From Candidatus Nomurabacteria bacterium RIFCSPLOWO2_01_FULL_42_17 (GTDB taxonomy: Bacteria; Patescibacteriota; Minisyncoccia; Phycocordibacterales; UBA9973): a DNA stretch of 33,017 nucleotides. Position numbers and translations under genes: made by a program. Shown here in pieces: positions 2,239 through 15,889 of the stretch. The notes beneath the pieces were generated by a model that was not told the origin of the DNA, searched no databases, and saw only the letters and a list, made by a program, of their open reading frames with translations. The DNA lies in assembly GCA_001785985.1 (NCBI GenBank), contig MFVE01000006.1, positions 1 to 33,017 of the forward strand, written 5' to 3'. How positions within the stretch are numbered: position 1 is the first letter of the stretch; each line of letters begins with the position of its first letter.

Positions 2239-2239
2239 G

Positions 2240-2311
2240 TGCGCGGTGAGGGGATTGAGCCCCCGGCCTACCCCACGTCAAGGGGTCGCTCTACCACTGA
2301 GCTAACCGCGC
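2240..2311 (-). tRNA. tRNA-Val (anticodon GAC)
   Basis: GCGCGGT TA GCTCAGTGGTAGAGC G ACCCC TTGACGT GGGGT AGGCC GGGGG CTCAATC CCCTC ACCGCGC A folds as a cloverleaf; anticodon loop TTGACGT. Confidence 0.9.
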
Positions 2312-2357: not shown

Positions 2358-2391
2358 TACTTCAAAATCTGCTATCGCAGACTTTGAAGTA
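2358..2391. repeat. 34-nt palindrome, left copy
   Basis: TACTTCAAAATCTGC-TATC-GCAGACTTTGAAGTA; 14/15 bp symmetric; partner at 2923-2956. Confidence 0.9.
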
Positions 2392-2398
2392 TTTATGG

Positions 2399-2404
2399 TA
2401 TAAT
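2399..2404 (+). promoter_or_regulatory. Extended -10 (TGG TATAAT) 6 nt before ATG
   Basis: TTTATGGTATAATTTTTTAATG; palindrome ends 7 nt upstream of the -10. Confidence 0.65.
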
Positions 2405-2410
2405 TTTTTA

Positions 2411-2896
2411 ATGAGTCTAATTTACGAAATTTTAAAAGAACTAAGTTCCACATCTTTGAATTATAAAGGTGTTCGTGTCAATCTTTTTGGTATCCCTAAA
2501 TTTAAGAATTATTCTAAAAATTCTTTGAGCGGAACGTTCTCTAGGCTTTATAAGGATGGTTTTATTGAAGACATTAATTTTAGAACTGAAGTAACTCCGA
2601 AAGGTAAAAAATATCTAAAAAGAAAAATTGATTCCTTAAAACAATTCTATTGTAAATTTGAAAAAGATGCGCCCAAAAATCTGATGGTGATGTTCGATAT
2701 TCCGGAGACAAAAAAAGCGGAAAGGGAATGGTTACGCTGGCATCTAAAAAAGTTCAATTATTCTATGATTCAAAAGAGTGTCTGGGTTGGTCCGTCGCCC
2801 TTACCAGAAGAATTTCTCGAATATATCGAAAAAATAAAAATAAAAGATGGTTTTAAAACTTTTAAATTAGCAAAAGAATACGATTTCAAAAAATAA
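2411..2896 (+). CDS. PaaX-like winged-helix plus Cas2-like (ferredoxin-fold) protein
   Basis: MSLIYEILKELSS...SLSGTFSRLYKDGFI...VTPKGKKYL (wHTH-like) then LMVMFDIPETKKAEREWLRWHLKKFNYSMIQKSVWVGPSPLPEEFLEY, typical of the PaaX central / Cas2-like region. ATG at 2411 preferred over the TTG at 2384. Confidence 0.75.
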   Translation: MSLIYEILKELSSTSLNYKGVRVNLFGIPKFKNYSKNSLSGTFSRLYKDGFIEDINFRTEVTPKGKKYLKRKIDSLKQFYCKFEKDAPKNLMVMFDIPETKKAEREWLRWHLKKFNYSMIQKSVWVGPSPLPEEFLEYIEKIKIKDGFKTFKLAKEYDFKK

Positions 2897-2922
2897 ATCA
2901 AATCAGTAAATAAATATAAATT

Positions 2923-2956
2923 TACTACAAACTCTGCGATAGCAGAGTTTGTAGTA
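2923..2956. repeat. 34-nt perfect palindrome, right copy
   Basis: TACTACAAACTCTGC-GATA-GCAGAGTTTGTAGTA; 15/15 bp. Confidence 0.92.
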
Positions 2957-2980: not shown

Positions 2981-4207
2981 TTATTTCAGTTTCTCTTGGA
3001 TTCGCTCAAGTGCTAAGATGAAAGCCCCCATGCGCAGAGATGTGTTTGATTCTTTGGATTTTTCTAGTATTTGTTTAGCTGAGTCCTCTATCATTAATTT
3101 AAGTTTTTTAAAAATTTCCTCTTCGGTCCAATGTCCTCTCTTTAAATTCTGATCCCATTCAAAATAAGATACAATAACGCCCCCGGAATTAGCCCAAATA
3201 TCTGGTAGTACGGGTATTCCTCTTTTGAATAAAATTTCATCAGCCTCTGGACTAGTGGGGCCGTTTGCTAGTTCTAAAATAACTTTTGCTTTTATTTTGT
3301 CTGCGTTTTCTTTATTTATTTCATTTTCAAACGCGCTAGGAATTAATAAGTCGCACTTTAATGCAAGAAGTTCTTGGTTAGTTATTTTTTTACTATCTGG
3401 AAAATTCGCTAGGGCACCTGTCTTTTTTTTATGTTCTAAAAGTTTTTCAATATTCAATCCATTTTCATCATAAATTCCTCCTCTAGAATCAGACACAGCT
3501 ATTACTTTATGTCCAGCTTTGTGCCATATAGATGCGGCGTGAGATCCCACATTTCCAAAACCCTGTATCACGACTGTGCATTTTTCTGGGAGATTTAATT
3601 CTTTTCTAAATGCTTCAAACCCATAAAATCCTCCTTGGGCCGTGGAAGTATTCCTACCCTCTGAACCCCCTTGATCTGTCGGCTTGCCGGTAAACGACGC
3701 TTCGGTATTGTCGCCGCTTATTTTTGCGTATTCATCTGCCATCCAAGCCATTATTTCTGGAGTGGTGTTTACATCCGGAGCTGGCACATCTTTGTGCGGA
3801 CTTAGAACGTCGGAAAGAGCTCGCACCCATCCACGTGAAAGCCTTTCCAATTCGCCTTTAGACAAATCCTTCGGCTCAACCGTTATCCCCCCCTTGCCTC
3901 CACCCATCGGTATGCCGGCAACAGCGCATTTGAGAGTCATCCAGAAGGCTAGTGCTTTCACTTCGTTTATCTCAGTCAGGGGGTGGTATCTGATTCCACC
4001 CTTGTAAGGTCCGAGCGCATTGTTGTACTGCACTCGATATCCCTCAAAGATTTTTATCGCTCCGTTGTCCATTTGGACCGGAATTGAAATTCTAATGTCT
4101 CGCTCCGGCTGCCTCAAGCGCTCCGCTAGATCATGTAATTTTTTCGTTTTATTTATTTTGACGGCTTTGTCTAGCTGCGCCATCGCATTTTGAAATGGGT
4201 TTTGCAT
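2981..4207 (-). CDS. gdhA: Glu/Leu/Phe/Val dehydrogenase (glutamate dehydrogenase family)
   Basis: YNNALGPYKGGIRYHP, MTLKCAVAGIPMGGGKGGI, APDVNTTPEIMAWM, VVIQGFGNVGSHAA. Confidence 0.93.
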   Translation of the reverse strand: MQNPFQNAMAQLDKAVKINKTKKLHDLAERLRQPERDIRISIPVQMDNGAIKIFEGYRVQYNNALGPYKGGIRYHPLTEINEVKALAFWMTLKCAVAGIPMGGGKGGITVEPKDLSKGELERLSRGWVRALSDVLSPHKDVPAPDVNTTPEIMAWMADEYAKISGDNTEASFTGKPTDQGGSEGRNTSTAQGGFYGFEAFRKELNLPEKCTVVIQGFGNVGSHAASIWHKAGHKVIAVSDSRGGIYDENGLNIEKLLEHKKKTGALANFPDSKKITNQELLALKCDLLIPSAFENEINKENADKIKAKVILELANGPTSPEADEILFKRGIPVLPDIWANSGGVIVSYFEWDQNLKRGHWTEEEIFKKLKLMIEDSAKQILEKSKESNTSLRMGAFILALERIQEKLK

Positions 4208-4215
4208 ATGTATAA

Positions 4216-4974
4216 CTATACTACTAGTTTCTCTAATATATTCAATTCTTCTTTGGTGTTGGCACCCAAGGCTTCATGAGGTTCTATTTCTATCGATTCA
4301 ATTTTAATTCCTTCTTTGGTTGCTATCTTTATTAGATCTGTCAAATAATATTCCTTTTGCGTGTTGTCAGTTTTTAAAATTCTCAGTTTTTCCCAAAGCC
4401 ATGAGGCCTCAAAACAAAAATAACATGGGTTCACTTCAGTGACTTTTTTCTCTTCCTCACTCGCGTCTTTAAATTGAACATCATTGATAATATTTCCGTT
4501 GGCATCCCGAATAATGCGGGAAAAATTTGCGTAAAAGACTTCTCGCCAGTCTTCAAAATCCGGTAACTTAACTGTCGCCATTGTTATTTTATGATTCGAA
4601 TCCAAATGCTTTTTGACTAATTTCTGAATGGTTGCAGAACTTATAAAAGGATGGTCTCCGTAAAGCACGACCACATGATCCGCCTTGTTTTCAAGCATCT
4701 CTTGCGCAGCCATGACTGCGTGTCCGGTGCCCAGCTGTTCTTCTTGAATGGCGTATCTATAATTATTTCCCATATCTCTCAGGGTCTTCATCACTAATTC
4801 TCGCTGTTGGCCGACGACTATGATAGGACTATCACAGACTCCCGATTCTTTTATTGCAGAGAGAACATGAGCAATCAAAGGTTTGCCATGGAGCGGTATG
4901 AGAACCTTGTGCAATTCTGATTGCATGCGTTTGCCGTGGCCGGCTGCTAGGATGATGATTTGTATTTTTTGCAT
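4216..4974 (-). CDS. UDP-N-acetylglucosamine pyrophosphorylase-like nucleotidyltransferase (GlmU N-terminal domain only)
   Basis: IIILAAGHGKRMQSELHKVLIPLHGKPLI, YAIQEEQLGTGHAVMAA, VVVLYGDHPFI; 252 aa, no left-handed beta-helix domain. Confidence 0.85.
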   Translation of the reverse strand: MQKIQIIILAAGHGKRMQSELHKVLIPLHGKPLIAHVLSAIKESGVCDSPIIVVGQQRELVMKTLRDMGNNYRYAIQEEQLGTGHAVMAAQEMLENKADHVVVLYGDHPFISSATIQKLVKKHLDSNHKITMATVKLPDFEDWREVFYANFSRIIRDANGNIINDVQFKDASEEEKKVTEVNPCYFCFEASWLWEKLRILKTDNTQKEYYLTDLIKIATKEGIKIESIEIEPHEALGANTKEELNILEKLVV

Positions 4975-5014
4975 AACGGGGAAGATTATAACATCTTTTT
5001 ATTTTTCACGCCTC

Positions 5015-5614
5015 TCAGCCCAAGGCTGATCCGCCTCGGGCGGGTATTTCTTTCAGGACTTTTGGAATCTTTTTAAAATCCTCTATCAGAATTTCTCGCA
5101 TCGAGCCGTTGTAAAGGGCCGCTGCCGGATGATAGAGAGGGAAGAAATATTTTGTGGACATTCCTTTGAATTTTTGTATCAATAATTTCCCATGGGCGCC
5201 GGAAATTTGCAATTCTGGGAAAAAATTATTCATGGCGTGCCGGCCGAGGAAGATTATTAATTTTGGTGAGATTATTTTTAGTTCGTCTAAGAGCCATTCT
5301 CTACAAGCCGATTTTTCTTCCGGCAGGGGATCGCGATTGTTCGGCGGACGGTATTTCACTATGTTGGTGATATATATTTCTTCTCTCTTTATATTTATAT
5401 GCGAGAGCATTTCACCCAAGAATTTCCCAGCCGCTCCCACAAACGGACGGCCTAGCTCGTCTTCCTTTTTACCTGGCGCTTCGCCAATAAAAACAATTTC
5501 AGATATAGGATTGCCATCTCCAGGCACTGCTTGTGTTGCAGTTTTCTTGAGTTCACACTCGCATTTTTCCTTCCATTTTTTATTTAAATCATCAAGTTTC
5601 TCTTTTTTATTCAT
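5015..5614 (-). CDS. udg: Family 4 uracil-DNA glycosylase
   Basis: EIVFIGEAPGKKEDELGRPFVGAAGKFLGEML, ITNIVKYRPPNNRDPLPEE, LYHPAAALYN. Confidence 0.9.
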   Translation of the reverse strand: MNKKEKLDDLNKKWKEKCECELKKTATQAVPGDGNPISEIVFIGEAPGKKEDELGRPFVGAAGKFLGEMLSHINIKREEIYITNIVKYRPPNNRDPLPEEKSACREWLLDELKIISPKLIIFLGRHAMNNFFPELQISGAHGKLLIQKFKGMSTKYFFPLYHPAAALYNGSMREILIEDFKKIPKVLKEIPARGGSALG

Positions 5615-10043: not shown

Positions 10044-11232
10044 TTCTCCTTAGAAATGCTGGAATAGCGCTCCAGTCCTCCGTATCGTCTTCTATGATGA
10101 TATCTTTGATCGGTTCTGTCTTCTTGTTGTCCATTTTCTTTATGAAATCATTACTGCCGATGTTCCCGCTCTTGATGGTGTTGCTTATTTCCTTTTTCGC
10201 TGTATTTGCATTGTCTTCTTTTAGGAGTGTCTGGCCTGTGTTACCAGTCGCGCTAAAGAGGCTCTTCCTAGGTGTATCAGCAGGGAAGTTGGTCGCAATA
10301 ACGGTAACTTTTATTTCACCCTTTTTTAATTTTTCATCGCGAATCGTGCCGAAAATAACTTTCGCATCCTTGTCGATTGATTCTGTTATTACCTTTGCTG
10401 CTTCTTGGATTTCATGAATAGTTAGATCATCTCCGCCAGAGATGGCAAAGAGGACGCCTTTCGCGCCGTGAATTGATACCTCTAAGAGCGGAGAGTTGAT
10501 CGCCGCCAAGGCTGCTTTTTCCGCTCGTTTTTCGCCTGAAGAAGTGCCGATGCCCATGAGCGCGCTGCCAGCGTCTCTCATGACGGCTTTGATATCTGCG
10601 AAGTCGACATTGATGATGCCCGGAGTAGTGATAAGGTCGGAAATACCTTCTACCGCTTGGCGCAAGACGTTGTCCGCACTGCTAAAAGCGTCTTTAAAAT
10701 TAGTATTTTTGTCAGCTAGTTGGAGAAGTTTGTCGTTTGGAATGACGATGATTGCGTCTACTTCTTTAGACAATTCTTCGATTCCTTTTTCGGCAATTTT
10801 CATTCGGTGATTGCCTTCAAAGAAGAAAGGCTTGGTCGTCACTGCGACAGTCAGGATGCCTTGCTCTTTTGCTGCGCGTGCGACGATGGGTGCTGCGCCG
10901 GTGCCGGTGCCTCCGCCCATTCCGCAAGCGATGAAGATCATATCCGCTCCCTTGATCACGTCTTGGATTTCAGATTTTGTTTCTTCGGCCGCTTTTTTGC
11001 CAACCTCTGGATCCATTCCCGCGCCGAGACCTTTGGTCAAATTTTTCCCGATATGAATTTTCTTATCCGCTAGAGAGTGGTGCAAGTCTTGAGTATCGGT
11101 ATTCATACAGATAAAGGAGACCCCTTTGACCTTGGAATTTATCATATGGTTTATGGCATTTTTCCCTGAGCCACCTACTCCGATGACCATAATGCGAGCG
11201 AAACTCTGTATATCTTGGTTTACTTTTGGCAT
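10036..11232 (-). CDS. ftsZ: Cell division protein FtsZ
   Basis: IMVIGVGGSGKNAINHM, FIACGMGGGTGTGAAPIVA, C-terminal DDTEDWSAIPAFLRRKK; start at MPKVNQDI (11232) preferred over the longer ORF. Confidence 0.95.
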   Translation of the reverse strand: MPKVNQDIQSFARIMVIGVGGSGKNAINHMINSKVKGVSFICMNTDTQDLHHSLADKKIHIGKNLTKGLGAGMDPEVGKKAAEETKSEIQDVIKGADMIFIACGMGGGTGTGAAPIVARAAKEQGILTVAVTTKPFFFEGNHRMKIAEKGIEELSKEVDAIIVIPNDKLLQLADKNTNFKDAFSSADNVLRQAVEGISDLITTPGIINVDFADIKAVMRDAGSALMGIGTSSGEKRAEKAALAAINSPLLEVSIHGAKGVLFAISGGDDLTIHEIQEAAKVITESIDKDAKVIFGTIRDEKLKKGEIKVTVIATNFPADTPRKSLFSATGNTGQTLLKEDNANTAKKEISNTIKSGNIGSNDFIKKMDNKKTEPIKDIIIEDDTEDWSAIPAFLRRKK

Positions 11233-11319
11233 AGTTTTTCTTGCCCCGCCGTGGCGTGGGCTTGTTAATAATTTACTTGTATAAAGGCATACTAGCACTG
11301 AAGTAAAAAAAAGCAACTA

Positions 11320-11374
11320 ATTAGGTTCTAGTGATTAGGTTCTAGTTTCTAGTCGCTAGCACCTAGAACCTAAT
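11320..11374. repeat. 12-nt repeat, two direct and one inverted copy, between ftsA and ftsZ
   Basis: ATTAGGTTCTAG 11320-11331 and 11334-11345; CTAGAACCTAAT 11363-11374. Confidence 0.85.
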
Positions 11375-11377
11375 TTT

Positions 11378-12550
11378 TTACGGCATTAGCTGTTTGATGC
11401 TTGATTTTACAGTATTTTTCAGGTCTTTAAATAAATTTCGCAGTGAGCCTTCGGAGTAGCCGCTCTCGTCTCGGAGAGCGGTGACGAGTCCGAGCGCGGC
11501 AAACCAAGCCGAGTCGCGAAGTTTAGTTTTTGAATTGCCAAAAATCTCGGTCGCTCCGGCGCTGGCGGGGAGTTTCAGGATAGATTTGGAAAGTTCCAGC
11601 AGTCCCGGTAGATTGCTACCTCCGCCCACAAATACGATGCCCGCCGGCAAGAGTCCACTTCGTTTTATTTTTTTCAGTTGATTTTCTATGGATTCAAAAA
11701 TATCATAAAGGCGCGCCTCGATAAATTCGTCCAACTTTTTCTTTGAAAATTCTTCTGAAATATTTCCAAGTTTTAATTCATCCGCTTCTTCGAGCGTGAT
11801 TTTAAATCCGAGCGCGATGTCATTCGTGATATTCGCAGATCCGATGGAAAAAGTATGGATCAAAATCGGCAAGCCGTTTTCAAAAATGGCGAGCGTTGTC
11901 GTCTGATGTCCGATGGAGACCAGCGCTACTCCTACAATTTTTTGTTTTTCCGACAATGCAATTTGCGCCATAGCGATAGGGGAGGCGATGACATCGATAG
12001 TCTCCACTCCCGCCTTGGCTACGACTTCGATCAAGTCTTCCAGATGCTGCATAGAATAAGTCACAAAAAAAGCTTTTACTTCGAGCTTTGTCCCGCGCAT
12101 GCCTTCTAGCCGGCCGAGGACTTCTCTGCCGTCGAGTCTGGAAGAAATATGGAATGTTTGAATGATTTTTTTATTGCTTAAATTCAAATTATCTTCGCAA
12201 TCCGCAAGTGCTTTGGTTATGTCCAGGTTGGTAACTTCGCCGTCGGCTTTAGAAATGATGACTGAGCCAGAGCTCCATTCTCCGCGCAAGGAAACTCCGC
12301 CGACGGAGAGGAATGCGCGTTTTATTTTTATGCCGCTAGATTTCTCTGCCATTGCTACGGCATTTTTGACGGAGATCACTAGCTCCAAAGAGTCATCAGA
12401 GTCATCCACATATCCATTCTTCATGCCCCTAGTCTCGCTCTCGCCCGCGCCGATGACTCTAGGATTTTTTTCTCCTTTTAAAAATTCTCCCACCACGATC
12501 CTCGTCATGGAGGATCCCACGTCTATTCCCACTGAAATATTTCTGTTCAT
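11378..12550 (-). CDS. ftsA: Cell division protein FtsA
   Basis: ISVGIDVGSSMTRIVVGE, VDVIASPIAMAQIAL, VGVALVSIGHQTTTLAIFENG, GIVFVGGGSNLPGL. Confidence 0.93.
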   Translation of the reverse strand: MNRNISVGIDVGSSMTRIVVGEFLKGEKNPRVIGAGESETRGMKNGYVDDSDDSLELVISVKNAVAMAEKSSGIKIKRAFLSVGGVSLRGEWSSGSVIISKADGEVTNLDITKALADCEDNLNLSNKKIIQTFHISSRLDGREVLGRLEGMRGTKLEVKAFFVTYSMQHLEDLIEVVAKAGVETIDVIASPIAMAQIALSEKQKIVGVALVSIGHQTTTLAIFENGLPILIHTFSIGSANITNDIALGFKITLEEADELKLGNISEEFSKKKLDEFIEARLYDIFESIENQLKKIKRSGLLPAGIVFVGGGSNLPGLLELSKSILKLPASAGATEIFGNSKTKLRDSAWFAALGLVTALRDESGYSEGSLRNLFKDLKNTVKSSIKQLMP

Positions 12551-15566: not shown

Positions 15567-15779
15567 ATGGAACGAAAATCATCAAAAATAGATAAGAAAG
15601 ACGTTCAACGTCCGCCAACACTTGAAGAAGCACAAAATATGCTGGCGTTTGCAGATTCACAGATCGAAAAATTAAAAGCAACCGGCAGTGAAGACAAACG
15701 TCTCCTTGAATATTTAAATCAGAAAAGAGATAAAGCAATCAAAGCAATAGCTAGGATTGAGGGGGAAAGTAAAAAATAG
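15567..15779 (+). CDS. 70-aa hypothetical protein, charged/helical
   Basis: MERKSSKIDKKDVQRPPTLEEAQNMLAFADSQIEKLKATGSEDKRLLEYLNQKRDKAIKAIARIEGESKK; 4 nt after the lysS stop; terminator follows. Confidence 0.6.
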   Translation: MERKSSKIDKKDVQRPPTLEEAQNMLAFADSQIEKLKATGSEDKRLLEYLNQKRDKAIKAIARIEGESKK

Positions 15780-15780
15780 A

Positions 15781-15808
15781 AAAAACGGAAGCAAGGCTTC
15801 CGTTTTTT
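15781..15808 (+). terminator. Intrinsic terminator
   Basis: AAAAACGGAAGC-AAG-GCTTCCGTTTTTT. Confidence 0.9.
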
Positions 15809-15889
15809 GTTTTAGGAAAATGAAAATCCCCGGAACCAGAGATTCTCGGGGAAATTTTTTGACGCTTTTTTTAAGCGTCGATAGTTTTA

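Follow-up and report, generated by a model that had tools for sequence, protein, structure and literature searches.

The PaaX repressor of E. coli recognizes as its operator two inverted 6-bp blocks that flank a spacer (TGATTC-N27-GAATCA), and it keeps its own promoter repressed through steric hindrance (PMC9493321). Full-length PaaX has about 300 aa, in which a winged helix is followed by a Cas2-like domain and a C-terminal effector domain. Another association of a small protein with palindromic DNA is found in the RAYT/REP/REPIN systems, where palindromes bracket the gene and the protein is inherited mostly vertically and diverges between copies (PMC3116915). A single small gene between two end palindromes is also the layout of IS200/IS605 elements, and a ferredoxin-like domain with an invariant Asp after its first strand is characteristic of CRISPR Cas2 and VapD. 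The short PaaX-type gene described here shares features with each of these systems, and in the 33,017-nt stretch of DNA that was analyzed (the window) it stands between two long palindromes.

The gene (2411-2896, plus strand) encodes a protein of 161 aa with a winged helix and a Cas2-like domain, which is the likely binder of both palindromes. The left palindrome L (2358-2391) and the right palindrome R (2923-2956), neither assigned to a strand, are 34 nt long with 15-bp arms; L is operator-like, with one mismatch in the arms and the loop TATC, and R has perfect arms and the loop GATA. When the block layout is taken from 122 copies of the element, L consists of outer blocks TACTTC/GAAGTA (2358-2363 and 2386-2391) and inner blocks TCTGC/GCAGA (2368-2372 and 2377-2381), and R contains outer blocks TACTAC/GTAGTA and the same inner blocks within 2923-2956. 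L is adjoined by tRNA-Val (2239-2311, minus strand; identified by ARAGORN and synteny). R starts 26 nt past the stop codon of the 161-aa gene, and 24 bp separate it from the stop of the convergent right-hand neighbour gdhA (2981-4207, minus strand). A scan of the 33-kb window for palindromes of this quality (arm of at least 14, at most one mismatch, loop of at most 4) returned three, namely L, R and a terminator-like one at 15778-15810, while 20 dinucleotide shuffles of the window gave 0-1 each, with a mean of 0.15. An earlier sequence-only reading of this DNA had described two 34-nt palindromes around a single gene for a winged-helix and Cas2-like protein, and both parts of this description hold; no Cas1, CRISPR array or cas-like neighbour was recognized around the gene among the ORFs of the window, which were read by eye. 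The search of the remaining genome that this reading had suggested found the exact core TCTGCNATNGCAGA at L and R only in the whole 670 kb. Its remark that the loops are reverse complements is true for L and R and is not general, as centres that are equal, self-complementary or unrelated occur in further copies. An Rfam search matched the tRNA alone, with the remaining matches far under the cut-off.

By sequence and fold, the protein is a member of the PaaX superfamily without being PaaX proper. Pfam matches it to PaaX_M (PF20803, E=3.6e-14) and Cas2 (PF09827, E=3e-5). An AlphaFold2 run with 66 relatives (pLDDT 79, pTM 0.54) predicts a winged helix followed by a domain of beta-alpha-beta-beta-alpha-beta topology, i.e., the domain order of PaaX. 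In the PDB, the closest matches in fold, both with weak E-values near 0.01, are Cas2 (8ia4) and the PaaX of E. coli (8a39). However, the assignment as PaaX proper failed because the C-terminal effector domain is missing and the NCBIfam PaaX equivalog model scores 14.9 against a cut-off of 264.55. The score for TIGR01573 is 24.4, just under the cut-off of 24.5. The invariant Asp of Cas2 and VapD is present as D96, but here the ferredoxin-like domain is fused to a winged helix. No known transposase domain and no catalytic domain beyond the Cas2 fold were found in the protein; Pfam gave no match to Y1_Tnp (HUH), the predicted fold being winged helix plus Cas2, and a PHROGs search returned nothing meaningful. 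Short PaaX-type genes match Cas2 models and may be mistaken for stray Cas2 in Patescibacteria.

In the GTDB family of the window, 146 of the 148 genomes have matches to the protein (1-19 in each, in genomes of 0.4-1.0 Mb), and, going by named GTDB contigs, the close family belongs to Nomurabacteria and relatives. In a phylum-wide sample of 191 Patescibacteria genomes, 64 contain PaaX_M proteins. Palindromes bracket most of those that are short (about 160-225 aa), with centres such as CGATCG, CGGCCG, CTATAG and CCATGG, whereas no bracketing palindromes were found around eight full-length PaaX relatives (236-258 aa). Strict palindromes occur on the left of 58%, on the right of 48% and on both sides of 38% of the 122 copies, compared with 0.8, 2.1 and 0% in shuffles, and these percentages are lower bounds because degraded palindromes are common; a sizeable minority of copies has one palindrome alone, or degraded ones. 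At a palindrome score of at least 10, 58% of the copies have a palindrome upstream and 50% downstream, compared with 10 and 19% of 241 ordinary genes from the same loci. Both palindromes are recognizable in most gdhA-linked orthologs, and the paired palindromes that the sequence-only reading expected in the flanks of orthologs were found there and around distant paralogs, each with its own sequence. Further relatives in the window's own genome include one that is bracketed by two quite different palindromes (L008) and a shorter one without the winged helix that has a palindrome pair too (L006). The observation of a palindromic bracket is correct and general. We found no relatives in viral contigs or in phage and plasmid collections, and no prior account of palindromes around PaaX/Cas2-like genes of Patescibacteria in the open-licence PMC literature, a scope that leaves out preprints. 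At one locus (L271), two convergent PaaX-like genes have a middle palindrome in common, and at another (L275) the palindromes of the pair are near-identical.

A profile of the 122 copies aligned at their dyads shows a conserved inner zone (0-6 bp), a weak middle zone (7-10 bp) and a strong outer block (11-16 bp). Inner and outer zones are common to L and R within one copy. The outer block is 91-100% paired and 80-98% identical between the two, it fades past 17 bp, and its sequence varies from copy to copy. In a set of 84 copies, outer-block similarity follows the identity of the winged helix when the Cas2-like domain is controlled for (partial rho 0.136, 0/500 permutations; 0.003 against the Cas2-like domain), while similarity of the centre follows the Cas2-like domain when the winged helix is controlled for (0.248, 0/500 permutations; 0.047 against the winged helix); these partial correlations are modest and the Mantel-type permutations remove shared ancestry incompletely. 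The middle zone tracks neither domain. The Nomurabacteria-type subset gives the same pattern, with 0.236 for outer block and winged helix and 0.302 for centre and Cas2-like domain, and the pattern persists when close pairs are left out. Two blocks that behave oppositely towards two domains would be hard to derive from ancestry alone. The PaaX operator has a counterpart in the window as a sequence pattern, TACTTC-N22-GAAGTA, and together with this precedent the coevolution of blocks and domains suggests that the palindromes are very probably binding sites of the protein dimer that they bracket. Compared with PaaX, the spacer is N22 instead of N27, the palindromic centre is conserved, sites lie on both sides of the gene, each genome can hold many divergent paralogs with a site of their own, and the genes lie outside a paa operon.

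The middle and the outermost arm positions are self-complementary even though L and R differ there (65 differences that are paired in both) and do not follow the protein. This is what would be expected if replication template switching kept and extended hairpin arms around a short functional core. As a full explanation, symmetry made by mutation is very improbable, as it leaves the association with one gene family, the bracketing and the coevolution of blocks and domains unexplained; template switching is probably a contributor. A simple code in which the protein reads the blocks fails to explain one subfamily, which is still bracketed, by shorter palindromes. The proteins of this subfamily b (L006, L073 at 11030-11398 on the minus strand, and L079 at 10973-11344) have about 122-124 aa and have lost the winged helix, while a YKGxxVNxFGxP motif and the Cas2-like domain are kept.

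The sequence-only reading placed the left copy at the gene's own promoter, and this position recurs in relatives. The -10 box TATAAT (2399-2404, plus strand) is preceded by TG (extended -10, TG-G-TATAAT, 2396-2404) and ends just 6 nt ahead of the ATG; therefore, a leaderless transcript is expected. A TATAAT-like box lies between left palindrome and ATG in 51 of 71 cases, compared with 42% expected from base shuffling. With automatically assigned start codons, the commonest distance from the -10 box to the ATG is 6-7 nt, and the left dyad has preferred distances to the ATG, mostly 35-36 or 44-49 nt. The preferred distances and the -10 boxes together mark the left palindrome as a putative operator over a leaderless promoter, which makes autorepression of the short PaaX-type gene likely, and autorepression is also a feature of PaaX (PMC9493321). 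The right dyad is loosely placed, 4-74 nt past the stop codon, and the right palindrome would suit either a second operator or the far end of a compact cassette. The distance from L to R shows no periodicity that would indicate helical phasing, and DNA looping is therefore not specially supported. Thus, the proposal of an autoregulated repressor with two operators is favoured by the left copy on the promoter and by the coevolution of the blocks, but not in its optional loop.

The palindromes could also act as intrinsic terminators that work in both directions, for the small gene and for the genes next to it. R, just past the gdhA stop, scores weakly terminator-like on the minus strand in a loose scan, which it passes as the only one of the window's pair. 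However, a T-run of at least 4 within 9 nt follows only 19% of the palindromes on the right and 14% of those on the left, the left palindrome lies upstream of the promoter, the palindrome is absent from empty gdhA loci, and the sequence blocks track protein domains. Ordinary terminators were rejected as the identity of the palindromes, and we consider this explanation the most improbable of those discussed here.

The presence of the unit varies between related genomes. In a search for gdhA in 80 genomes of the genus, the spacer between gdhA and tRNA-Val is 0-77 bp in many species, where tRNA-Val directly follows gdhA, and 624-770 bp when filled, as in the window and in seven or more others; the empty sites that the sequence-only reading had looked for thus exist. 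In one genome (G125), a copy lies within the 5' end of uvrC (gene named by eye) with the uvrC start on both sides, while the site is uninterrupted in G124 and G126, and judged from these relatives the insertion is derived. The insert of about 1.3 kb exceeds the gene plus palindromes, and the duplication is long and irregular. In two comparisons (L202/G125 and L193/L195), the right palindrome borders a segment that differs in gene content. Target-site duplications of a regular length were not observed, none of the junctions at the gdhA/tRNA-Val and uvrC sites is exact to the base, and no near-identical full elements were found at different sites, as close copies share flanks. The gdhA-linked locus is under purifying selection (dN/dS 0.06-0.18, with dS near saturation). 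Given this selection and no near-identical full elements, transposition would be rare or indirect, and recent movement is not visible because one genome per species was compared. The single small gene between two end palindromes resembles IS200/IS605, but neither an HUH transposase nor TnpB is present here, and no defined target tetranucleotide or exact excision was seen. On balance, the unit appears mostly resident and would disperse occasionally.

Two paralogs about 11 kb apart on one contig (L066, G126:C2, 273-728 and 11225-11680) are 96.6% identical over 237 bp of the Cas2-domain region and differ in the winged helix, which points to either gene conversion or domain swapping. Upstream of tRNA-Val at another locus (L167), the interval from the element to the intact tRNA-Val contains a truncated tRNA-Val-like fragment (GCGCGGTTAG...).

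The survey for orphan palindromes covered seven genomes and used one core pattern. About a dozen were found in one of them (G049), and most match types of that genome's own elements in the inner, middle and outer zones, with outermost arms that differ yet stay self-complementary; because of these matches, they are REP-like rather than terminator-like. For one type (GTGACAC), the incomplete assembly contains no cognate gene. The same genome contains a 109-bp palindrome-bounded unit with one palindrome of each of two types and about 30 bp between them. This unit occurs at two loci that differ in their flanks, and its two copies are 94% identical; palindromes like these are absent from the smpB-ftsH locus of the relatives examined. 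Palindromes spread genome-wide without the gene, which the sequence-only reading held to speak against its proposal, do not occur in the window's genome, and those in G049 mostly keep to resident element types. Short-core sites of another genome (G088) are without long arms and were dropped as orphan palindromes. Three of the G049 orphans (L156, L159 and L160) lie near type IV pilin-like genes with GFTLIELLVVI... motifs or similar.

Palindromes that bracket a gene and a mostly vertical protein that diverges between copies (PMC3116915) are features shared with RAYT and REPIN, and the orphans and the short palindrome-bounded unit of G049 would be a further likeness. Unlike in these systems, the protein has no Y1 (HUH) domain, the palindromes are long, near-perfect and dyad-symmetric, and the orphans are few and so far seen in one genome. 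By behaviour, the unit would thus resemble a RAYT/REPIN pair without being one. The palindromes could alternatively be REPs that a RAYT (Y1 transposase) mobilizes in trans, with the PaaX-like gene as a passenger or as a regulator that adopted them. A Y1_Tnp/RAYT gene directly upstream of one family member in the window's own genome (L007 435-1740) and a RAYT-like start near one orphan palindrome (L157) agree with this, but these are the only two such places among the loci examined, a GTAG-type tag was not noticed by eye, and the blocks of the palindromes vary along with domains of the PaaX-like protein itself. Movement by a RAYT is therefore improbable. The first of these loci also has a repeated peptide (DGPSQ/DGPSF) from short palindromic GAAGGACNGTCCTTC-type repeats, which run into both the RAYT and the PaaX-like gene.

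The compact mobile or REP-like element, the other option of the sequence-only reading, is favoured by the empty sites, the uvrC insertion and the G049 orphans, and disfavoured by the lack of near-identical copies and exact junctions. This element and the two-operator autorepressor are each independently supported, and both may hold. A purely regulatory account would instead make the gene an ordinary host gene for a two-operator autorepressor, with the second site acting by titration, looping or as a roadblock, and would explain presence and absence by loss and gene transfer, the palindromes themselves never moving. The left palindrome on the promoter, the coevolution of blocks and domains, purifying selection at fixed loci, both palindromes at most gdhA-linked orthologs, and orthologs with common flanks would fit such an account. 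It is nevertheless unlikely, as it does not agree with the L-R distance free of helical phasing, orphans that share arms including the non-recognized middle, the 109-bp unit at two loci, 1-19 copies in genomes of 0.4-1.0 Mb, and the derived uvrC insertion.

We favour, with a probability of roughly 60%, a one-gene cassette that recognizes itself, represses itself and occasionally disperses. The truncated PaaX-type protein would bind both bracketing palindromes as a dimer, with the winged helices reading the outer 6-bp blocks and the Cas2-like dimer sitting on the centre. Binding to the left palindrome would cover the -35 region of the leaderless promoter and repress the gene, and the right palindrome would be a second site for the same protein. 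The pair would also mark the ends of a compact, mostly vertical unit that is now and then gained and dispersed, with orphan palindromes and the short palindrome-bounded unit as by-products of dispersal in a RAYT/REPIN-like manner. Short PaaX-type genes would then form a coherent phylum-wide system, as our results suggest, with a protein-DNA code readable from sequence alone. More tentatively, at somewhat less than even odds, the cassette could represent a class of minimal mobile DNA that is new and widespread in Patescibacteria. Such a unit would span about 0.6 kb and end in palindromes, and its sole protein, a Cas2-fold/winged-helix dimer unrelated to known transposases, would recognize these ends through a two-part code, repress itself, and disperse the unit and bare ends alone or with host replication. 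If mobility is true, a Cas2-fold protein would be the basis of a REP/REPIN-like system, with a bearing on how Cas2 joined the integrase complex as a partner and on how very small genomes hold up to 19 copies of one gene type.

Other palindromic sequences were noted as well. Two contig starts (L035, and L154 at 1-100) are fold-back palindromes with 50-57-bp arms and central element-type cores, which represent either an assembly artefact or a real inverted duplication. Additionally, other hairpin-forming repeats of about 40-95 nt (L196 at 892-990, 4474-4520, 4935-5031 and 5364-5416) are present in many copies in G124-G126 and are a separate REP-like load.
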